Shown here one piece after another: positions 100-13,455 of a stretch of 40,519 bases of DNA (positions are counted from its first letter, which is position 1; each line of letters starts with the position of its first letter). Under the pieces are notes generated by a model. That model saw only the letters and a program-made list of their open reading frames with translations. It searched no databases and was not told the origin of the DNA. A program made the translations under genes and the position numbers. The DNA comes from a virus. Location of the stretch: IMG/VR virus record IMGVR_UViG_3300048672_001321, positions 1 to 40,519 of that record. One strand, given 5' to 3'.

Positions 100-546
100 T
101 TACTTGACCAGGTGGCGCAGGCTCTCGGGCAGCTTGGAGACGTCCACCGTGACGGCCGGCTTCAGCTCCGCGATGCGCTTGTCGATCTCCTGCTGGATGG
201 CCAGCTTGGCGTCGGGGTCGGTGGTGAGGCCGAGCAGGGTCTTCATGGCCTTGATGCTCTCGTCACCGCTCCCGCTGCGGCTGCCGGGGTTCTTCGGGAT
301 GTACTGCGTGCCACCGTTCAGCCGCAGGTCCTTACGCAACCAGTTGTTGCACAACCCCGGGATGTACTTCTTGAGCTGCTCGTCCGTGGGGTTCTTGCTG
401 TGGACCGTGAGGCCCGTCTTGAACATCGTGAAGATGCTCTCGTGGATGGCCGAGAGCTGCTCCTTGGTCGGCTCGTACTTGCCGTCCTGCTCCCCGCAGA
501 TGCCAACCACAGCCTGGTACACAGCCTCACCTTGCGTCATGCTCAT
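100..546 (-). CDS. Uncharacterised protein, paralogue of the gene at 1533-2012
   Basis: 148 aa, soluble, with no signal peptide or membrane segment. It aligns along its whole length with the 159-aa product at 1533-2012. Shared blocks are MTQGEAV near the N-terminus, YIPGLxNNWxRKDxRLNGG at about residues 61-79, YIPKNPGSR at 82-90, DESIxAMKTLL at about 95-105 and LPESLRHLV at the end. The family is not one I can name. The conserved central block suggests a compact helical domain, and the acidic and lysine-rich C-terminal half looks helical. The start at 546 is supported by AAAGGAGC eight bases upstream; a second ATG two codons on is possible. A TATAAATA box lies at 588-595 on this strand. GC content is much higher than in the rest of the window. 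Confidence 0.85.
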   Translation of the reverse strand: MSMTQGEAVYQAVVGICGEQDGKYEPTKEQLSAIHESIFTMFKTGLTVHSKNPTDEQLKKYIPGLCNNWLRKDLRLNGGTQYIPKNPGSRSGSGDESIKAMKTLLGLTTDPDAKLAIQQEIDKRIAELKPAVTVDVSKLPESLRHLVK

Positions 547-1532: not shown

Positions 1533-2012
1533 TCAGCTCTGCGGGACCAGGTGGCGGAGCGACTCGGGCAGAGCGTCCACCTTGATCTCGACCTTCGGCT
1601 TCAGCGCGGCCACCCGCTTGTCGATCTCGGCCTGGATGGCGAGCTTCGCCTCGGGGTCGGTCGTCAGGGAGAGGAGGGTCTTCATCGCCCGGATGCTCTC
1701 GTCCTGCGTCCCAGTCCGACTCCCGGGGTTCTTCGGGATGTACTTCACCCCGCCGTTCAGACGGCTGTCCTTGCGGACCCAGTTGTTCACCAACCCCGGG
1801 ACGTACTTCAGGAGGGAGGCGTCGTCGTTGCCGCCGCTGTTCTTGGCGACCGCGCCGCTCTTGAAGGCCGCGAAGACGATCGCGTGGACCTTCTGCTTCG
1901 TCTCCTCGGACCACGTCTTCGTCTCCGGCACCGCGCCGTCGAGCTTGCCCTCGTTGCCGAACACCGCGAGAACCGCCTGGAACACCGCTTCACCCTGCGT
2001 CATGGTCGACAC
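1533..2012 (-). CDS. Uncharacterised protein, paralogue of the gene at 100-546
   Basis: 159 aa with a GTG start. It shares MTQGEAV, YVPGLVNNWVRKDSRLNGG, YIPKNPGSR, DESIRAMKTLL, LTTDPxAKLAIQxEIDKR and LPESLRHLV with the 148-aa protein and differs mainly in a variable segment at about residues 20-55. The start at 2012 is supported by AAAGGAGCAACACA just upstream, nearly identical to the leader of the paralogue (AAAGGAGCAACGCAC), so gene and translation signal were duplicated together. A minus-strand TATAAT box lies at 2089-2094. Function is unknown; the even conservation suggests both copies are functional. Confidence 0.85.
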   Translation of the reverse strand: MSTMTQGEAVFQAVLAVFGNEGKLDGAVPETKTWSEETKQKVHAIVFAAFKSGAVAKNSGGNDDASLLKYVPGLVNNWVRKDSRLNGGVKYIPKNPGSRTGTQDESIRAMKTLLSLTTDPEAKLAIQAEIDKRVAALKPKVEIKVDALPESLRHLVPQS

Positions 2013-2209: not shown

Positions 2210-2380
2210 ATGAACACACAAACCCACTGGCCTACCTTGGACCAATACAACCACCTGGAGGGCCTACTCAACCTCTATGTCCTTCTGGGCCTCATCTCTC
2301 GTAACACTCGCTCGCGAGTGCTCTCCAACTTCATCAACAGGATCATGTCTACGAGCTCGGCCAAGGCGTACGCTTCCTAG
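2210..2380 (+). CDS. Array microprotein 1 (56 aa)
   Basis: First member of the tandem paralogue array. A polar N-terminus of about 18 residues leads into the family core LLNLYVLLGLISRNT, followed by a second predicted helix (RVLSNFINRIM) and a serine/alanine-rich tail. The core places L-G-L-I-S at residues 27-31 and an N-T in place of the usual K-T. AGGGAGAAA directly precedes the ATG. It is separated from member 2 by 9 bases. Confidence 0.85.
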   Translation: MNTQTHWPTLDQYNHLEGLLNLYVLLGLISRNTRSRVLSNFINRIMSTSSAKAYAS

Positions 2381-2389
2381 GGTGCTAAT

Positions 2390-2521
2390 ATGGATCTCAC
2401 CTACCTCTTCGTCATCCTGCTCTACAACTTAGGTCTTATCTCTCCTAGTGCCTATTACCAAGTCACCGCAACGCTGTTCAACAAGATATTCACAAGGGCC
2501 GCCTCCACACTTCCCTATTAG
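2390..2521 (+). CDS. Array microprotein 2 (43 aa)
   Basis: Short member with almost no N-terminal extension: MDLTYLFVILLYNLGLIS forms the first helix and turn, followed by PSAYYQVTATLFNKIFTRA as the second helix. The K-T of the turn is replaced by P-S-A. The first helix is strongly hydrophobic and could associate with a membrane. AGGGTG lies just upstream of the start. A perfect 16-base palindrome (2528-2543) follows the stop codon. Confidence 0.8.
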   Translation: MDLTYLFVILLYNLGLISPSAYYQVTATLFNKIFTRAASTLPY

Positions 2522-2527
2522 GTTCGC

Positions 2528-2543
2528 GAGGTACCGGTACCTC
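2528..2543. promoter_or_regulatory. Perfect 16-base palindrome between array members 2 and 3
   Basis: GAGGTACCGGTACCTC is fully self-complementary. It is followed at 2552-2560 by CTAGTACAG, nine bases identical to the conserved loop of the hairpins at 51-80 and 1252-1273 (complementary strand sense). As RNA it would fold tightly with no loop; as DNA it is a typical dimeric-protein site. It sits in the 46-base gap before member 3. Confidence 0.5.
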
Positions 2544-2567
2544 TACCGGGTACTAGTACAGATAATT

Positions 2568-2684
2568 ATGACTACCTCCCACTATTACCTCCTGCGCCTC
2601 ATGGAAGTGTGCTTCTACCTGGACCTCATCTCTCACAAGACCATCTGCAGCATGACATACCGGCTCTCGTCTTACTCCTCCTAG
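2568..2684 (+). CDS. Array microprotein 3 (38 aa)
   Basis: Shortest member. LLRLMEVCFYLDLISHKT carries the complete family core with a canonical S-H-K-T turn, followed by a short second helix (ICSMTYRLSSYSS). No Shine-Dalgarno sequence is evident before this ATG, and upstream in-frame starts exist, so the start is less certain than the frame. The next gene begins 5 bases after the stop. Confidence 0.75.
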   Translation: MTTSHYYLLRLMEVCFYLDLISHKTICSMTYRLSSYSS

Positions 2685-2688
2685 ACAC

Positions 2689-2841
2689 ATGGACCCCTTC
2701 TACTACTACTACCAAGACCAGCTGATTGTCTTCATAAGGGTGATTTACACACTCAACCTATGCACGCGCACTAGATGGGAATCGGCATACAGGATGTCTT
2801 TCTCGAAAGCGTGGGGTTCATGGCCAGAAGCAAAGTTATGA
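2689..2841 (+). CDS. Array microprotein 4 (50 aa)
   Basis: An N-terminal tyrosine run (FYYYY) precedes the core VFIRVIYTLNLCT. The second half (AYRMSFSKAWGSWPEAKL) matches member 6 (AYVCCISKGWPDW), so 4, 5 and 6 form a subfamily marked by FxRV, LNLCT or LGLVS, AY, and K-x-W. The Shine-Dalgarno site is weak. The stop overlaps the start of member 5 as ATGA. Confidence 0.75.
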   Translation: MDPFYYYYQDQLIVFIRVIYTLNLCTRTRWESAYRMSFSKAWGSWPEAKL

Positions 2842-2990
2842 AGCTTAAGACGCCCTACTACACCCATAGCAATCAGGGTATAGTGTTTCTACGCGTACTG
2901 CACGTGCTGGGCCTGGTATCGCGCAAAGCACACCTCGACGCGTACGTGACATTTGTTGCTAAGGCATGGAAGGAGGCAGATGGATACTAA
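2838..2990 (+). CDS. Array microprotein 5 (50 aa)
   Basis: One of the clearest members: VFLRVLHVLGLVSRKA is the first helix and turn, and LDAYVTFVAKAWKEA the second helix. The start at 2838 overlaps the previous stop (ATGA), suggesting translational coupling; an earlier in-frame start at 2775 would lie inside member 4. It belongs with members 4 and 6 by the FLRV, AY and K-x-W marks. Confidence 0.85.
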   Translation: MKLKTPYYTHSNQGIVFLRVLHVLGLVSRKAHLDAYVTFVAKAWKEADGY

Positions 2991-3120
2991 TCGACTGCTG
3001 GACTTCTTGAGAGTGGTTCATAGGCTCAACCTGTGTACGCTGGAGGGGTTCACCTATGCCTATGTGTGCTGCATATCGAAGGGATGGCCGGATTGGGTGA
3101 GCAAACTTGAGCATGCTTAA
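2980..3120 (+). CDS. Array microprotein 6 (46 aa)
   Basis: LLDFLRVVHRLNLCTLEG forms the core and YAYVCCISKGWPDWVSKLE the second helix, closely matching member 4. A very strong Shine-Dalgarno site, AAGGAGG, sits inside the end of member 5, four bases before the ATG, so expression is coupled by an 11-base overlap. Three cysteines (two adjacent) are unusual for the family. Confidence 0.85.
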   Translation: MDTNRLLDFLRVVHRLNLCTLEGFTYAYVCCISKGWPDWVSKLEHA

Positions 3121-3244
3121 ACCACGGGGTAGCAGTTTTCTGTTCATTAAGTTCTTGGCCATCTGCTATGTTCTCGACCTTATGAGCATCAAGACATACG
3201 ACAAGGCATGCAGGGCCGCCTTTCGACTCTATTTCACTCAATGA
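3113..3244 (+). CDS. Array microprotein 7 (43 aa)
   Basis: FLFIKFLAICYVLDLMSIKT is the core with a canonical S-I-K-T turn, followed by YDKACRAAFRLYF. The A-C pair five residues after K-T recurs in members 8 and 16. It overlaps member 6 by 8 bases and is followed by an ATGA junction with member 8. Confidence 0.8.
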   Translation: MLKPRGSSFLFIKFLAICYVLDLMSIKTYDKACRAAFRLYFTQ

Positions 3245-3372
3245 GCAACGACGGGTGCTTCTACATACTTCGGCTGTTGGCGATATATTATAGGCTGGGG
3301 CTTGTTCACCACGCTATGTACCATCTGGCCTGTACGCACGCAGTGAATCACTATTATACGACTTACTCATGA
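3241..3372 (+). CDS. Array microprotein 8 (43 aa)
   Basis: YILRLLAIYYRLGLVHH is the core; the turn has lost S-x-K-T and reads VHHAM. The second helix YHLACTHAVNHYYTTYS keeps the A-C mark of member 7 and is rich in histidine and tyrosine. ATGA junctions on both sides imply coupled translation. It has the same length as member 7 and is probably its duplicate. Confidence 0.8.
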   Translation: MSNDGCFYILRLLAIYYRLGLVHHAMYHLACTHAVNHYYTTYS

Positions 3373-3488
3373 CTCAAAACATGAAAGAAAATGGTTTGCT
3401 GCGCCTGTTAATGTGTGTAGCATTTGCCAATATACTTTATAAGTTGGGTCTTACGGGTAAGAAGAGGCCTCGGCCATATGACTTTTAG
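3369..3488 (+). CDS. Array microprotein 9 (39 aa)
   Basis: LLMCVAFANILYKLGLTGKKRP contains the core with a T-G-K-K turn, as in members 21 and 24. The protein stops soon after the turn (RPYDF), so the second helix is missing. It may be a truncated member, since member 10 starts within its last codons. It starts at an ATGA overlap with member 8. Confidence 0.7.
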   Translation: MTQNMKENGLLRLLMCVAFANILYKLGLTGKKRPRPYDF

Positions 3489-3684
3489 GTTCACAGAAGA
3501 AGATGCACATGCCTACTGGGGTGCTGACACAAGGGAGTTTGTTGACTTGTGGTATTGGACGATCATCAGGATGATGACCGATTTGAAGCTAATTAAGGAG
3601 GCTTCTACTGATATGACTGACATCGAGATATTCACGCGACTCATGAAGTACCGGCCGCCGAGGAAGCAACATGAGCAGCATTGA
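3478..3684 (+). CDS. Array microprotein 10 (68 aa)
   Basis: A divergent, longer member. An acidic N-terminal extension of about 20 residues precedes the core VDLWYWTIIRMMTDLKLIKE. The second helix (MTDIEIFTRLMKY) ends in a basic tail with PPRKQ. It overlaps member 9 by 11 bases. An in-frame upstream start at 3424 is unlikely because it lies wholly within member 9. Confidence 0.75.
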   Translation: MTFRFTEEDAHAYWGADTREFVDLWYWTIIRMMTDLKLIKEASTDMTDIEIFTRLMKYRPPRKQHEQH

Positions 3685-3814
3685 GAACGAGATGTTTATA
3701 AGTTTCTGGAATCTCATGACAGTGATGAGAAACTTGAAGCTTTGCACACTAAACTATTATGTGCCTGATAAGGAACTTAAGAAGCACTTCAGCCCGTGGA
3801 AATATGGAACCTAG
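3671..3814 (+). CDS. Array microprotein 11 (47 aa)
   Basis: ENEMFISFWNLMTVMRNLKLCT is the N-terminal mark plus core, here shown from residue 5; the C-terminal part is YYVPDKELKKHFSPWK. It pairs with member 12, sharing ENE, SF, LxTV, N/A-L-x-L and LKKH/LLKH, and so is a recent duplicate. GAGGAAG precedes the start at good spacing. It overlaps member 10 by 14 bases. Confidence 0.8.
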   Translation: MSSIENEMFISFWNLMTVMRNLKLCTLNYYVPDKELKKHFSPWKYGT

Positions 3815-3950
3815 TGAAAACGAACTGTATGGTAGTTTCGGGAGCCTACTGACGGTATTAAAGGCTTTGAGACTTATTACACTGCGCTATTTTGTCTTTG
3901 ACGCAGATCTCTTGAAGCACGCGCCAGCGAGGAAGCACAGTGGATTATAA
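3804..3950 (+). CDS. Array microprotein 12 (48 aa)
   Basis: SFGSLLTVLKALRLITLRY is the core and turn; DADLLKHAPARKH follows, paralleling DKELKKHFSPWK of member 11. S-x-K-T is replaced by T-L-R. It overlaps member 11 by 11 bases. An in-frame start at 3759 is rejected because it would lie inside member 11. Confidence 0.8.
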   Translation: MEPSENELYGSFGSLLTVLKALRLITLRYFVFDADLLKHAPARKHSGL

Positions 3951-4185
3951 GGCAAGCTTACATGTTCGGGACGGCATAATGGACGTCCACGCTCTGAACT
4001 TGTTTCTGAGCTTTGAAGAGATTTGCAGTCGCCTTGGCCTGTGGGCTGAGAGCGTGGGATGGCAGAAGGGCGAGAAGTCTTTCTACAGAATAACGGGTCA
4101 AACATTTAACAAGGATATGCAGCGACGATATGATGGTCAAGCACTTATACAAGAACGACTTCGAGACGATACCGATGAGCAGTAA
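3940..4185 (+). CDS. Array microprotein 13 (81 aa)
   Basis: Longest member. The core LNLFLSFEEICSRLGLWAES is present but the remainder (GWQKGEKSFYRITGQ, then a charged helical C-terminus) is unlike its neighbours. The GTG start at 3940 is preferred over the ATG at 3979 because CGAGGAAGCACA before it repeats the context of member 11 (CGAGGAAGCAAC) and restores the usual 11-base overlap with member 12. Confidence 0.7.
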   Translation: MDYKASLHVRDGIMDVHALNLFLSFEEICSRLGLWAESVGWQKGEKSFYRITGQTFNKDMQRRYDGQALIQERLRDDTDEQ

Positions 4186-4387
4186 GTTCTTCCCACTGGA
4201 CAGGCGGGACCTGCAGGAGCACATGGTCCATAAGGCAGTGGGTCACCTCTTTGAGGTGTATACTCTGCTGCGGCTCTTTCCGCAGCCGGATAGACACCTG
4301 ATGGTGGATTTCGCGAAGGCGCTGTTCAAGCTTGTGGCCCGGAGACAGACGCACTTGTGGAACAAGACTACTTATACAGTGAAATAG
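4175..4387 (+). CDS. Array microprotein 14 (70 aa)
   Basis: The core AVGHLFEVYTLLRLFPQPD is weak, with F-P replacing the S-x-K-T turn; the second helix is HLMVDFAKALFKLVARRQ. The start at 4175 gives an 11-base overlap with member 13, matching neighbouring junctions; an in-frame ATG at 4130 is possible. It is the last gene before the only substantial gap in the array. Confidence 0.7.
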   Translation: MSSKFFPLDRRDLQEHMVHKAVGHLFEVYTLLRLFPQPDRHLMVDFAKALFKLVARRQTHLWNKTTYTVK

Positions 4388-4503
4388 TCGTGCTTAGTCG
4401 GTCGACATATGGGGCCGCGGGCCGGCTTAGGAACGCTCGGCAATATTGGGCTTAGTGAATCGATTCTGTAAACAAATCTTTGGTTTTTTAACAAGTGGCG
4501 AGT
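4388..4503 (+). other. Gap in the array with a possible gene remnant
   Basis: This 116-base stretch has no full gene. A 20-codon frame at 4410-4472 encodes LGTLGNIGLSESIL, which resembles the family turn region (LGL-S-E-x-T), and could be the decayed end of a lost member. The section around 4405-4432 is GC-rich with several short palindromes (GTCGAC, CATATG, CCGCGG). A T-rich run (GGTTTTTTAAC) precedes member 15. Confidence 0.35.
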
Positions 4504-4680
4504 ATGAATCAACTTAACGCGGATGCGAATGTCGTCTACTTCTTGAGGTTTCTCAAGAAACTCGGACTCTTGTCGAGCAAGACTTACATCCGCATCGGCC
4601 AGCACCTTCTAATTCACGGGAATAGTAAAAAGGATGCATGGAGGAAGGCAAATTGGAAGGAATTTCTCAAGGATGGCTAA
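4504..4680 (+). CDS. Array microprotein 15 (58 aa)
   Basis: The closest to a consensus: VVYFLRFLKKLGLLSSKTY contains FLR, LGL and S-S-K-T. The second helix (IRIGQHLLIHG) is followed by a lysine/tryptophan-rich basic tail (KKDAWRKANWKEFLKD). The ATG is preferred over a GTG three codons upstream, though neither has a strong Shine-Dalgarno sequence. The stop overlaps member 16 as TAATG. Confidence 0.85.
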   Translation: MNQLNADANVVYFLRFLKKLGLLSSKTYIRIGQHLLIHGNSKKDAWRKANWKEFLKDG

Positions 4681-4841
4681 TGGAGTACAAGCGTTGCTAT
4701 GTGGGCTTGATTGGCGCTCTCCAGTATCTCGGACTTTGCTCCAAACAGACTTTTTTAGATGCCTGTAATGAGATCTTTTACAGGGCGGACAGAATCAGCA
4801 TGCAGCATACATCTGTAGGTAAGGGATATGGGACCTATTAA
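4680..4841 (+). CDS. Array microprotein 16 (53 aa)
   Basis: YVGLIGALQYLGLCSKQTF is the core with a one-residue shift of K relative to S-x-K-T; LDACNEIFYRAD is the second helix with the A-C mark of members 7 and 8. AAGGATGG before the overlapping TAATG provides the ribosome site. The C-terminal tail is glycine/tyrosine-rich. Confidence 0.85.
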   Translation: MEYKRCYVGLIGALQYLGLCSKQTFLDACNEIFYRADRISMQHTSVGKGYGTY

Positions 4842-5025
4842 AAAATTCTTCTGGGAGCGTAAATACAAGGGGAGAGTCGACTCTATTTCCTCTGTACAGT
4901 TCCTGCAAACGCTAGCTAAGCTCAACCTCTGGGCTCCTTCAGACAGGATGCGGAACATCTTAGCTTCAAGAATGGACTTACATCGGACTATGAACGAAAT
5001 GTTACGGGAGCTCGACAAGTTATAA
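4828..5025 (+). CDS. Array microprotein 17 (65 aa)
   Basis: A basic N-terminal extension (KKFFWERKYKGR) precedes the core VQFLQTLAKLNLWAPSD, followed by a long charged helix (MDLHRTMNEMLRELDKL) that could form a coiled coil. It overlaps member 16 by 14 bases. The promoter-like AAGTTATAAT at 5017-5026 spans its last codons. Confidence 0.8.
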   Translation: MGPIKKFFWERKYKGRVDSISSVQFLQTLAKLNLWAPSDRMRNILASRMDLHRTMNEMLRELDKL

Positions 5026-5026
5026 T
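5017..5026 (+). promoter_or_regulatory. AAGTTATAAT promoter-like 10-mer
   Basis: Identical to the 10-mers at 7430-7439 and 22303-22312, each just upstream of a gene start. Here it would start transcription at about 5033, ahead of members 18-22. Confidence 0.45.
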
Positions 5027-5049
5027 AGTTACATAGTCCGGGGCGTACA

Positions 5050-5262
5050 ATGGTGCCTAATGGTCACGAATCAACTTATGTCTTCTTTAGGTGCATCATT
5101 CAACTTGGACTTTTTCAACCAAAAATTGGACTCATAAGAAAGATCGACCTCTTCTTGTACTACTGGAACCGCAATGCAAAGAAAGATAAGAACAGTAGAT
5201 GGAAGAAGCGCGATATTACCTTTCCTCAGAACAATACTCAACCTGGAACTCGTAAGCATTGA
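5050..5262 (+). CDS. Array microprotein 18 (70 aa)
   Basis: The core STYVFFRCIIQLGLFQPK starts at about residue 8; the remaining two thirds is basic (RNAKKDKNSRWKKRD). The last 30 codons overlap member 19 in another frame, so the basic tail may partly be a by-product of that overlap. CGGGGCG precedes the ATG. It is preceded by the promoter-like 10-mer at 5017. Confidence 0.7.
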   Translation: MVPNGHESTYVFFRCIIQLGLFQPKIGLIRKIDLFLYYWNRNAKKDKNSRWKKRDITFPQNNTQPGTRKH

Positions 5263-5323
5263 TACGATATGTGATGCGGTCTTTTACCGCTTAAAGTATC
5301 CGCTATTTCAGGAGACACTATGA
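5174..5323 (+). CDS. Array microprotein 19 (49 aa), hidden in overlapping frame
   Basis: This gene overlaps 89 bases of member 18 in a different frame, then continues to an ATGA junction with member 20. The product has the family architecture: MQRKIRTVDGRSAIL, then the core PFLRTILNLELVSIDT and second helix CDAVFYRLKY. FLR falls at residues 17-19, as in member 5. The start is modest (TGGAACC upstream). The match to the motif, not length, is the evidence. Confidence 0.8.
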   Translation: MQRKIRTVDGRSAILPFLRTILNLELVSIDTICDAVFYRLKYPLFQETL

Positions 5324-5487
5324 GTGAATATCTACCTAAGCCGATGTCAGTTCGTCAGACTGAGCACATGCTCAGGTTCCTGATGATGCTCTTCTCTATG
5401 CAGCTCATCTCAGAAAACACTTTTGCTGAGACCACTATTTACTTTGACGACTGGACGGAATTCGACGCCTATGATTTCGAGGTATGA
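5320..5487 (+). CDS. Array microprotein 20 (55 aa)
   Basis: EHMLRFLMMLFSMQLISENT carries the core, methionine-rich in helix 1, with S-E-N-T at the turn. The C-terminal half is strongly acidic (DDWTEFDAYDFEV), in contrast to basic members 15 and 18. CAGGAGACACT gives a strong ribosome site. It overlaps member 19 by 4 bases and member 21 by 17. Confidence 0.85.
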   Translation: MSEYLPKPMSVRQTEHMLRFLMMLFSMQLISENTFAETTIYFDDWTEFDAYDFEV

Positions 5488-5611
5488 AGGACAGAAGGCG
5501 ACATTTCGCTTTTTTAGACTCATTGTTAAGTTAAAGCTCGTATCTGGTAAGAAGGTCGACGTGGCGTGGTGGCGACTAATTCGCAACATGCTATTTGGTA
5601 AGCCCCAATGA
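5471..5611 (+). CDS. Array microprotein 21 (46 aa)
   Basis: ATFRFFRLIVKLKLVSGKKVD is the core with the S-G-K-K turn shared with member 24; the second helix AWWRLIRNMLFGK is basic and amphipathic. The start inside the end of member 20 (17-base overlap) is the only ATG before the core other than one at 5423. An ATGA junction leads to member 22. Confidence 0.8.
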   Translation: MISRYEGQKATFRFFRLIVKLKLVSGKKVDVAWWRLIRNMLFGKPQ

Positions 5612-5799
5612 TGACTTCACAGCCAAGCATGTGGACGTTGAAGAACACCACACTCAACTTCTTCCAGTTCCTCATTCAGCTAAAGCTCACTGGGCACCAG
5701 ATTCCTCAGGCCCAGATTGAAAAGTTGATTCGCCGGCATCGATCTCGATACAATATGTCAAGTGATATGACGCCATCATTTTATAACGGAGGGTTTTGA
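5608..5799 (+). CDS. Array microprotein 22 (63 aa)
   Basis: LNFFQFLIQLKLTGHQIPQ is the core with a T-G-H-Q turn. A basic segment (KLIRRHRSRYN) and a polar tail follow. It overlaps member 21 as ATGA with no clear Shine-Dalgarno, so it probably depends on coupling. Its stop codon touches the TATAAT box at 5800-5805. Confidence 0.8.
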   Translation: MMTSQPSMWTLKNTTLNFFQFLIQLKLTGHQIPQAQIEKLIRRHRSRYNMSSDMTPSFYNGGF

Positions 5800-5805
5800 T
5801 ATAAT
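5800..5805 (+). promoter_or_regulatory. TATAAT box between array members 22 and 23
   Basis: TTTTGATATAATAG immediately follows the stop of member 22. It precedes a 124-base stretch with no clear family gene (only a 19-codon frame at 5834-5893) and then member 23, and would provide a separate transcript for the last two members. Confidence 0.4.
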
Positions 5806-5929
5806 AGTAGAGTAGTTCTTAAGTCGGACTTGAAATGAAAAGCCTACCGTTAGAACGACATAATCCAACAGCCATAGGAGGACTTGCACTGTAATAGTGG
5901 TCGTATTTCTCTACGTAAAGGAGTCTACC

Positions 5930-6094
5930 TTGGAACTAAAATACAACGGCGAGCAGGACAGCACGACAGCAAAGATTAGATCGATACTTTATCTCCTACA
6001 GTTCATTGAGAACAATATTACTAAGCAAATCCACTATCAAGACTTTGAAGGCGACAACGGTTTTTACAAATATATGGCGGTCCACTTAAAGTAG
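5930..6094 (+). CDS. Array microprotein 23 (54 aa)
   Basis: A divergent member: KIRSILYLLQFIENNITKQ aligns with the core, but L-x-L-h-S is replaced by E-N-N-I-T. The TTG start at 5930 is chosen because AAAGGAG lies six bases upstream; a GTG at 5897 lacks a ribosome site at usable distance. It ends at the GTAGTACAAT promoter-like sequence. Confidence 0.65.
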   Translation: MELKYNGEQDSTTAKIRSILYLLQFIENNITKQIHYQDFEGDNGFYKYMAVHLK

Positions 6095-6100
6095 TACAAT
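6095..6100 (+). promoter_or_regulatory. TACAAT box for leaderless member 24
   Basis: GTAGTACAAT (6091-6100) is identical to 35214-35223. The box ends exactly 6 bases before the GTG of member 24, the spacing of the other leaderless starts. Confidence 0.5.
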
Positions 6101-6106
6101 AGATGG

Positions 6107-6295
6107 GTGGATTACAACAAGCACGAAACAGAAGCGGAGAATTCCTTCCTGCGACTGTTGATACTTCTTCAGGAATTAAAGTTATCTGGTAAGAAGATAA
6201 CCTCTATGATGGTGTTGTCTGATACGACGCTGGTCGGCTTCATACTGAGAAACAGGCGACATCTGCGCAAGCCAGACGGAATCTTAATCCTCTGA
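6107..6295 (+). CDS. Array microprotein 24 (62 aa), last of the array
   Basis: NSFLRLLILLQELKLSGKK carries the core with the S-G-K-K turn, then TSMMVLSDTTLVGFILRNRR. GTG start with no ribosome site; the TACAAT box placed 6 bases before it predicts a leaderless message. The last 12 bases overlap the convergent gene at 6284-6538. Confidence 0.75.
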   Translation: MDYNKHETEAENSFLRLLILLQELKLSGKKITSMMVLSDTTLVGFILRNRRHLRKPDGILIL

Positions 6296-6538
6296 TAAGA
6301 CTTCTTCCATCTCTATCTGAAAGAGCTCATCGGCAGCCGCGTTCTCATACTTCTCGAGGACTTCGTCCTCTGACATGTCGGGGTTTATCTTCAGGTAGTC
6401 CATGCAGTTAACTCTACGTCCGTTGACTCGTTTGTTGCCGAGTGGACATCGGCTGCAGATGGCCGGTCTAGCAAACCCCTCGCAGTCGCCATGCCTATCG
6501 ATGATTTCTTGCAGGATAGCGACTTTGTCTTCGACCAT
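6284..6538 (-). CDS. Small four-cysteine protein (84 aa)
   Basis: Cysteines at 19, 28, 31 and 45 (C-x8-C-x2-C-P-L-x11-C) look like a metal-binding or iron-sulfur knot within a short basic segment. The flanks are acidic and helical, ending in a strongly acidic tail (EMEEVLSED). I know the CxxCPL pattern from small phage proteins but cannot assign a function. It is the only minus-strand gene between the array and the structural operon. The ATG at 6538 has no Shine-Dalgarno and sits 6 bases after a TATAAT box, predicting a leaderless mRNA. Confidence 0.8.
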   Translation of the reverse strand: MVEDKVAILQEIIDRHGDCEGFARPAICSRCPLGNKRVNGRRVNCMDYLKINPDMSEDEVLEKYENAAADELFQIEMEEVLSED

Positions 6539-6594: not shown

Positions 6595-7401
6595 ATGGCT
6601 CAAGACGAACCCTCAAAGATTTATCCAACTAAAACTCCTACTAGTACCCCTTCCCAGATGCCTCCGCTCATCCCGGACCCCAGCATTTTTGGAGTAAGCT
6701 TTGATCAGCTGCTCAATAATCGGGGTGTCCGGATGCTTCATAGCAAGGCGGCTCCCTGCCCAAACATGCAGACGGTGGACGATAACGCCCATGAGCCCAA
6801 CTGTCCCTACTGTGACAATAACGGGTTCATCCACTATGATGAAAGAGAGATCTGGGCCACTTTCGGTGGTAACTCTATTCAGAAGACCTTTGAGGCCCAC
6901 GGTGTCTGGGAGATCGGAATGGCAACCGTAACTGCCCCTACCGAATATCCAGATGGAACCGAAGCCGACTTTAACACCTACGATCGCCTCCGAATCCCCG
7001 ACTTTACGGTACGAATGTGGGAACTGAAAGAGTATGAGCCCCGACCGGGCAATATTCAGGCCCTACGGTATCCGGTTCAGAAAGTCGACTACGCTACGGC
7101 CATCGTAAATGGTATGCAGGTCTTCTACACAGTGGGCGTCGACTTCAATCTTAATGACAAGGGCGAGATTGTGTGGGTCGAAGGAAAGCAGCCAGCTTAT
7201 AATGCAGCCACCGGTCACGGTCAACCCATCACTTGGGTCTTTTATGCCGAACCCGTGTACTATGTAGTTCAAACACTTAGAGAATTAAGAATCACGCAAG
7301 AGTTGGTGCAGGGAGAGAAGGTTGCACGACGCCTACCTCAAAGCATTCTCGTCAAGCGAGACTTCCTACCGGGTAAAACAGAAACGATCGTGAATCCTTA
7401 A
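6595..7401 (+). CDS. Virion structural protein, probable neck/head-completion protein
   Basis: 268 aa. The N-terminus is proline/threonine-rich and disordered (to about residue 30). It is followed by a probable zinc-binding segment with C55, H66, C70 and C73 (NCPYCDNNGF), then a mixed alpha/beta body (PDFTVRMWELKEYEPRPGN; GMQVFYTVGVDFNLND) resembling phage structural proteins. It opens the operon that leads to the sheath gene, a position usual for neck or head-closure proteins. Family assignment is inference from context and composition; it could be a different minor virion protein. Confidence 0.6.
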   Translation: MAQDEPSKIYPTKTPTSTPSQMPPLIPDPSIFGVSFDQLLNNRGVRMLHSKAAPCPNMQTVDDNAHEPNCPYCDNNGFIHYDEREIWATFGGNSIQKTFEAHGVWEIGMATVTAPTEYPDGTEADFNTYDRLRIPDFTVRMWELKEYEPRPGNIQALRYPVQKVDYATAIVNGMQVFYTVGVDFNLNDKGEIVWVEGKQPAYNAATGHGQPITWVFYAEPVYYVVQTLRELRITQELVQGEKVARRLPQSILVKRDFLPGKTETIVNP

Positions 7402-13215: not shown

Positions 13216-13218
13216 GTG

Positions 13219-13291
13219 TGGAAGCGACAGGACTTGAACCTGTAACACCTGGCGTTTCAAACCAGTGCTCTACCAATTGAGCTACGCTTCC
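13219..13291 (-). tRNA. tRNA-Phe (GAA)
   Basis: A 73-base cloverleaf: acceptor GGAAGCG/CGCTTCC, 4-bp D stem GCTC/GAGC, anticodon loop TTGAAAC giving GAA, T-stem ACAGG/CCTGT with TTCAAGT loop. CCA is not encoded. It is the last of three tRNAs transcribed leftward. Confidence 0.95.
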
Positions 13292-13294
13292 AAA

Positions 13295-13376
13295 TAGCCT
13301 AGGTGGGACTCGAACCCACACGCCTTTCGACGACGGTTTCTAAAACCGTTGCGGCTGCCAATTACGCCACCAGGCC
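13295..13376 (-). tRNA. tRNA-Leu (TAG)
   Basis: A class II tRNA of 82 bases with a variable arm CGTC-GAAA-GGCG, anticodon loop TTTAGAA giving TAG (reads CTA), and T-stem GTGGG/CCCAC. Acceptor GGCCTGG/CTAGGCT contains two G-T pairs. CTA is a common leucine codon in the sheath gene. CCA is not encoded. Confidence 0.93.
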
Positions 13377-13381
13377 ATAAG

Positions 13382-13455
13382 TCAGGAAGGTGGGCTTCGA
13401 TCCCACGATCTCGTGCTTCCAAGGCACGCGCGATACCAGGCTTCGCTACTTCCTG
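13382..13455 (-). tRNA. tRNA-Pro (TGG)
   Basis: A 74-base cloverleaf: acceptor CAGGAAG/CTTCCTG, D stem GCGA/TCGC, anticodon stem CGTGC/GCACG with loop CTTGGAA giving TGG, T-stem GTGGG/CCCAC with loop ATCGAAG. It begins with C, as is usual for proline tRNAs. It is first in the leftward tRNA transcript. Confidence 0.94.

Follow-up and report, generated by a model that had tools for sequence, protein, structure and literature searches.

What common task could two dozen very small, highly diverged genes serve when they stand directly upstream of the virion genes of a phage? The question is raised by the window, the whole 40,519-base stretch analysed here (IMG/VR virus record IMGVR_UViG_3300048672_001321), which comes from an uncultured contractile-tail phage with sheath (phrog_279), baseplate and head-neck genes. 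At 2210-6295, the window carries an array of 24 small plus-strand open reading frames (ORFs), m01 to m24, whose products share one short helical motif. We found that the array belongs to a phage-wide microprotein family with several arrays on both strands. Our preferred explanation, to which we give a probability of roughly 40%, is that the helix may be a docking motif for one common partner rather than part of a two-helix binder scaffold.

The initial annotation described 24 genes lying head to tail, most of them joined by ATGA, TAATG or 8-17-base overlaps, and this layout was confirmed. Several starts were corrected (m01 at 2210, m14 at 4175, and m19 only at 5174, with an 89-base overlap with m18; the start of m05 is more likely 2838, in an ATGA overlap with m04, than 2820), and member lengths are 38-70 aa when nearer starts are taken, the starts having been chosen by eye on records that may be fragments. 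The genes are co-oriented, and the co-translation ascribed to them is probable. The reported spread of tail charge, from basic to acidic, stands as a range, from -8 (m20) to +10 (m18), although most tails are basic. The members are listed below with their support, namely recovery by leave-one-out profiles, recovery by a profile of minus-strand members of the related contig G012, and orthologues in related contigs (handles in L or G).

2210..2380, +: m01, 56 aa, core LEGLLNLYVLLGLISRNT; leave-one-out (0/500 shuffles), G012 minus-strand profile (E 2e-4)
2390..2521, +: m02, 43 aa, core YLFVILLYNLGLISPSAY; leave-one-out, G012 profile (E 1e-8)
2568..2684, +: m03, 38 aa, core YLLRLMEVCFYLDLISHKT; leave-one-out, G012 profile (E 4e-6)
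2689..2841, +: m04, 50 aa, core LIVFIRVIYTLNLCTRT; leave-one-out, G012 profile (E 3e-6)
2838..2990, +: m05, 50 aa from ATG 2838 (56 aa from 2820), core IVFLRVLHVLGLVSRKA; leave-one-out, G012 profile, ATGA overlap with m04
2980..3120, +: m06, 46 aa, core LLDFLRVVHRLNLCTLE, AGGAGG-like ribosome-binding site upstream; leave-one-out, G012 profile
3113..3244, +: m07, 43 aa, core FIKFLAICYVLDLMSIKT; leave-one-out, G012 profile
3241..3372, +: m08, 43 aa, core YILRLLAIYYRLGLVHHA, ATGA overlap; leave-one-out, G012 profile
3369..3488, +: m09, 39 aa, core VAFANILYKLGLTGKK, ATGA overlap; leave-one-out, G012 profile
3478..3684, +: m10, 68 aa, core LWYWTIIRMMTDLKLIKEA; L010 orthologue, leave-one-out, G012 profile
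3671..3814, +: m11, 47 aa, core FWNLMTVMRNLKLCTLN; leave-one-out, G012 profile
3804..3950, +: m12, 48 aa, core FGSLLTVLKALRLITLR, by eye the closest window paralogue of m11; leave-one-out, G012 profile
3979..4185, +: m13, 68 aa, core NLFLSFEEICSRLGLW; orthologues in L010, L003 and L011, G012 profile (E 0.16)
4175..4387, +: m14, 70 aa, weakest core (LLRLFPQP); L003 orthologue (proportion of synonymous differences, pS, 0.81; of nonsynonymous differences, pN, 0.33), leave-one-out not significant
4504..4680, +: m15, 58 aa, core VVYFLRFLKKLGLLSSKT; L010 orthologue 71% identical, leave-one-out, G012 profile
4680..4841, +: m16, 53 aa, core LIGALQYLGLCSKQT, TAATG junction; leave-one-out, orthologue comparison, G012 profile
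4828..5025, +: m17, 65 aa, core VQFLQTLAKLNLWAPS; L010 orthologue, leave-one-out, G012 profile
5050..5262, +: m18, 70 aa, core VFFRCIIQLGLFQPK, strongly basic tail; orthologues in L003 and L011, leave-one-out
5174..5323, +: m19, 49 aa, core FLRTILNLELVSIDT, overlapping m18 by 89 bases; leave-one-out, G012 profile
5320..5487, +: m20, 55 aa, core MLRFLMMLFSMQLISENT, acidic tail, ATGA junction; orthologues in L010 and L005, leave-one-out, G012 profile
5471..5611, +: m21, 46 aa, core FRFFRLIVKLKLVSGKK; orthologues in L010, L005 and L011, G012 profile
5608..5799, +: m22, 63 aa, core LNFFQFLIQLKLTGHQ, ATGA junction; orthologues in four relatives plus L091, AlphaFold helices 8-24 and 34-52
5897..6094, +: m23, 65 aa, GTG start, degenerate core; L010 orthologue 71% identical
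6107..6295, +: m24, 62 aa, GTG start, core LRLLILLQELKLSGKK, conserved C-terminus GILIL; leave-one-out, orthologues

One common core in such diverged paralogues had been proposed at the outset, and the leave-one-out profiles bear this out: for 22 of the 24 members, none or no more than 1-2 of 500 shuffled versions of the member did as well, the failures being m14 (20/500 shuffles) and m23 (87/500). By orthology m23 is a real gene, although its membership of the motif family appears weak. Over 18 core codons, in columns anchored by hand, the mean identity between members was 0.36, 0.53 and 0.28 at codon positions 1, 2 and 3, respectively; position 2 was 100% identical at columns -7, 0 and +2, and position 3 (28%) was at chance. 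Because position 2 is fixed in places and position 3 is random, constraint acts on the protein and the DNA similarity has been erased. The chance-level third positions also rule out a non-coding or DNA-repeat origin of the array, and neither an Rfam match nor a transfer RNA (tRNA) was found within it. The ORF tiling alone is only mildly unusual (a chain of 20 ORFs, against a mean of 12.5 and a maximum of 19 in 60 shuffles), and the weight rests on the motif and its conservation.

Orthologous arrays occupy the corresponding place in L010 (=L002), L003, L004, L005 and L011, which rules out a one-contig oddity. The pooled orthologue pairs gave a pS of 0.80 and a pN of 0.32, the pairs having been picked by protein similarity, which biases pN low, with synonymous sites near saturation and frames kept; the pN of the neck gene was 0.08-0.09. 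The array orthologues in related contigs are under protein-level constraint. Orthologue identity was 0.54 in the core and 0.51 outside it. The tails are thus kept about as strictly as the core, which suggests a distinct, settled task for each member. The conserved scaffold with a freely variable surface, as first envisaged, is not upheld by these values.

The relatives were gathered by an alignment search with the neck protein (28 loci), the motif alignment being too variable for scans of the collection. Motif-bearing small ORFs were found before the neck gene or elsewhere in most records examined, and none in L028 and L035. G012 (172,623 bases), a contig of the window's clade that contains the 97-kb record of L011 whole at 100% identity, holds about 45 motif ORFs, in minus-strand groups at 24-36 kb and 54.7-62 kb, in a plus-strand array at 64.9-67.5 kb and scattered elsewhere. 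With a profile of the window core (24 members), we recovered 21 ORFs of G012 at E<0.1 outside the orthologous array, mostly in arrays on the opposite strand, and 0 in shuffles, so that members of other arrays are found above background. A reciprocal profile of 34 minus-strand members of G012, whose seeds were themselves chosen with the window profile, recovered 20 of the 24 window members at E<0.1 (shuffle mean 0.44). The initial annotation had presented a single array; in fact, related contigs carry the motif all along their length, in small ORFs of either strand.

In a sister clade (G001, G003, G005, G007, G010, G011, L012, L014, L023, L026 and others) the motif takes the form LLxLLxKLGIKSA, with 20-30 copies on both strands of G001 (177 kb). 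A combined profile matched 184 ORFs of the whole set at E<1, as compared with 7 in shuffles; except where stated, profiles were refined on the sequence sets later counted. Built from the sister clade only, a profile recovered just 3 members of the window at E<0.1 and 4 at E<1 (0.1 per shuffle at E<1), with no minus-strand match. The two forms have clearly diverged, and their common origin is the weaker link, based on synteny, shared positions and the combined profile. Among 607 large proteins (222,513 residues), the combined profile matched 2 at E<0.5. These are homologues of each other and the only large proteins with the helix motif, a possible clue to its origin or partner.

G001:43349-43933: 195-aa protein with the helix motif in mid-protein
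G003:66205-66792: its 195-aa homologue, motif likewise in mid-protein

The shape of the motif bears on what it may do. In the window clade the core reads [F/L]-L-x-x-[L/M]-x-x-L-x-L-[I/V]-[S/T]-x-x-T, with signal, relative to the anchor Leu, at -7 (F/L), -6 (L), -3 (L/M), 0 (L), +2 (L), +3 (I/V), +4 (S/T) and +7 (T). The relatives' form is L-L-x-L-L-x-K-L-G-[IV]-K-S-A; among 104 sister-clade members, information lies at -7, -4, -3, -1, 0, +1, +2, +4 and +5 and is nearly gone from +6, with Leu in 97% at -3 and 99% at 0, Lys in 63% at -1, Gly in 58% at +1, Ser in 48% at +4 and Ala in 43% at +5, frequencies that are biased upward by the profile selection of the sequences. In 20 of the 104, the protein ends no more than 12 residues from the anchor Leu. 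The median starting residue of the motif is 18-23, and it begins within 5 residues of the protein start in 1/85 and 1/104 members, positions that are upper bounds, being taken from longest-start ORFs. Across the clades, the conserved part is one amphipathic helix with its cap, the second helix not being conserved in the relatives. AlphaFold gave m22 two helices with low to moderate confidence (mean predicted local distance difference test score, pLDDT, 63.5), and three helices for one chimera of the kind described below (mean pLDDT 67.6); fold searches with both models returned no significant match. The two-helix motif originally described therefore holds at best for the window clade, with the m22 model in its favor, whereas the relatives conserve only the first helix and the LGIKSA cap.

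In the sister phages, the variable parts of some microproteins resemble structural proteins. Of 470 tiled array ORFs used as queries against large phage proteins, 16 gave a match at E<=0.01; shuffling the queries left 1-3 matches, and reversing them left 2. About 9 of the 16 are array proteins with structural-protein stretches, the remainder being paralogues, homing-endonuclease-like or chance matches.

L026:150-398: chimera with the major-capsid stretch FGGPLQVESLSATLKGVTFNSNHLKLW
L026:800-1021: chimera with tube
L026:1054-1320: chimera with a baseplate J-like N-terminus
G005:43595-43726, L014:3428-3565 and G003:12924-13088: chimeras with the sheath N-terminus (MAINVSFNGATIYKPGAY in sheaths)
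G011:5957-6169 and L014:3862-4125: chimeras with a second capsid stretch
G001:176173-176346: chimera with a sheath stretch, by eye

The capsid-type fusion was found in an eight-genome group, which shows such a fusion to be inherited and no fresh accident. Fusion of the helix to pieces of shell and tail proteins suggests a shared plug-in motif. Among window-clade members, none was convincingly chimeric with structural proteins. A copying of the motif from the major capsid protein, which has LKLQKMLSVKSAKS in Myxococcus phage Mx1, was considered and not adopted; the capsid proteins of G003 and G001 do not keep LKLQKMLSVKSAKS.

Capsid sequence is reused in a further case: the product of a gene upstream of that for the major capsid protein carries another copy of an N-terminal capsid stretch (ALTAGYGGAGxPTS..GGGVxQxE; G001:67399-69054, G003:92105-93775). 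Another array protein recurs without the helix motif; it combines an N-terminus like that of larger phage proteins (MSEFLKFNKSGQWSLEK) with a GTLHDFGGG stretch (G003:13520-13810, G007:6125-6418, G010:12474-12755, L014:2959-3243 and G001:160804-161112).

One explanation of these data is that each microprotein would consist of one leucine-rich amphipathic helix and a capping turn within an otherwise unrelated small body. The helix would dock to a common partner, and the variable parts would bring that partner to different clients, making the microproteins a set of adaptors; in sister phages, fragments of the phage's structural proteins make up some of these parts. We infer the docking, the single partner and the role of the adaptors, be it in host takeover or in control of the phage's own assembly. 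We prefer the docking hypothesis because of the specific Leu positions, the conserved polar residues in the sister clade, the many contexts of the motif, the lack of room for a second helix in some members, and tails that are fixed per gene. A linear docking motif also fits better than a folded hairpin, since there is little signal from +6 and 20/104 members end early. Its fullest version, a peptide docking code in which tens of small proteins from both strands would address a single hub by one helix, with new adaptors arising by fusion to capsid, sheath, tube or baseplate fragments, is rather doubtful as a whole. Several points weigh against docking. Leucine-rich amphipathic helices are easy to converge on. 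In the window clade, conservation consists of hydrophobic positions and the S/T cap, equally expected of a plain folded hairpin, and the 42% frequency of T at +7 is a hint that a second helix may be conserved in this clade. AlphaFold also gives m22 two helices.

Some of these points lead directly to the alternative that the motif is the folding core of a two-helix scaffold, whose members would be independent host-takeover or anti-defence binders with no shared partner, much as the initial annotation proposed. The mostly hydrophobic conservation with an S/T N-cap in the window clade and the helix-loop-helix model of m22 agree with it, as does the 26-gene takeover module of mostly small proteins in SPO1 (PMC6873191), whose group has a major capsid protein about 32% identical to that of G003. 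However, little is conserved after +5 in the relatives, 20/104 members end within 12 residues of the anchor, the polar residues that these relatives do conserve are K, G, K, S and A, and the motif is fused to structural-protein pieces. We regard such binders as a tentative possibility that remains close to the docking hypothesis, particularly for the window clade.

The array immediately precedes the head-neck and tail genes and shares their strand, a position that would suit a virion-targeting tag like the capsid targeting sequence of T4, by which the proteins would be packaged and ejected into the host with the DNA. In T4-like phages one short sequence loads diverse small internal proteins (PMC9026906), and some members here carry capsid and tail protein pieces. 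The T4 sequence is, however, N-terminal and removed by proteolysis, whereas the present motif is internal (median residue 18-23), and many members lie in opposite-strand small-gene regions, which makes a tag unlikely. Still less probable is that the proteins are decoys or dominant-negative fragments that disturb rival phages as they assemble, or that dull the host's sensing of capsid and tail proteins; the sister-phage chimeras do resemble the sheath N-terminus, the tube, two major-capsid regions and the baseplate J-like N-terminus, but only about 9/470 tiled array ORFs are chimeric, none was found in the window clade, and the shared helix is left unexplained. A membrane-active amphipathic peptide, forming an envelope-acting cocktail of small toxins or lysis modulators, is very improbable. 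The helix does have a markedly hydrophobic face, and the proteins are short and often basic in the tail; yet two positions that in a membrane peptide could equally hold I, V, F or M are almost always Leu, the tails are conserved gene by gene, and some members are acidic (m20).

The genes around the array are as follows.

6595..7401, +: head-neck type virion protein (phrog_1004), the anchor gene for finding relatives, preceded by the 24 small ORFs
6284..6538, -: small cysteine-rich protein (C..C..CP...C), 84 aa, between the array and the neck gene, conserved in 20 related contigs
1533..2012, -: protein of the 'NWLRKD/LNGG/KNPGSR' family, 159 aa, a family with copies close to microprotein arrays
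100..546, -: second 'NWLRKD' family copy, 148 aa
G012:36203, 58840, 62463 and 64138; G001:156809, 169252 and 174185: further copies of this family

A second cysteine-rich gene (CxxCPFRAICLPEFLNP) often stands beside the 6284-6538-type gene in related contigs. The NWLRKD..LNGG.KY..KNPGSR family (about 150 aa, multi-copy) occurs close to microprotein arrays in most related contigs and has no match in PHROGs, in Pfam above threshold or in named phages. Median distances from its copies to the arrays were 476-2380 bases (p 0.0065-0.10 per genome against uniform positions), a test that overstates the association, small genes being clumped. As a lead only, the protein is a possible partner or regulator of the microproteins. 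A promoter scan gave 8 sites against 6.4 expected, which is not above chance. Amid the tail genes of the plus strand lie three tRNA genes (Phe, Leu and Pro; window 13218-13455, minus strand).

A large and unexplained share of big phage genomes consists of small genes, and here about 45 of them in one contig, with comparable sets in relatives, are tied by one motif. Finding the partner of one member would make the remaining members interpretable, and, should the motif dock to a hub of the host, that hub could be probed with it directly. The structural-protein chimeras show a possible route for the origin of new small phage genes.

Among known families, none was common to several members in Pfam, PHROGs or PADLOC (34 members scanned), with single-member matches only; the best E values were 0.017 for PHROGs, where the matches were scattered, 0.012 for Pfam and 0.00067 for PADLOC (one member, Cas2_II). 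The absence of a described family, as already stated in the initial annotation, was thus sustained, and no description of such a family was found in the literature (open-licence papers) or among solved structures. The sole match in a sequence search of the PDB was the N-domain of the type II secretion ATPase XpsE (2d27/2d28; LLALLGRLGLVSERDH, E 0.044); it is not significant and covers 25 residues only, and we regard the likeness as a generic one between helix-LGLxS-helix segments and not as a sign of kinship. Sequence resemblance had also suggested helix-hairpin-helix DNA-binding (RecG/RuvA-like) and MshEN-like domains; these were set aside, the PDB search having given only XpsE. The nearest named phage is Mx1 (neck 26% and sheath 32% identical), in which no motif ORF was found in the 46 kb examined and no array before the neck gene in its annotation.

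Two phage systems invite closer comparison. SPO1 has a 26-gene host-takeover module (genes 37-60) of mostly small proteins, among them Gp53, an adaptor-like protein for the host ClpCP (PMC6873191). The likeness is that SPO1, too, is a myovirus in which genes of mostly small size are tightly grouped, and that its major capsid protein is a distant relative, that of G003 being about 32% identical to SPO1-group counterparts. The module is a precedent both for the clustering of small genes and for a protease adaptor encoded by a phage. The takeover genes are, however, larger, early and placed in the terminal repeat, whereas the window array adjoins virion genes, and no ORF in the first 20 kb of SPO1 matched the motif with either profile. 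In T4-like phages, the targeting peptide comprises about 10 residues, is N-terminal and cleaved, and serves a few proteins, whereas the present motif is internal, of another form and present in about 45 copies in one contig, and the microproteins do not carry it at the extreme N-terminus, where a T4-type peptide has to stand. What the two systems share is a set of small, divergent, poorly conserved proteins with a common short peptide, which in T4-like phages serves for targeting (PMC9026906).

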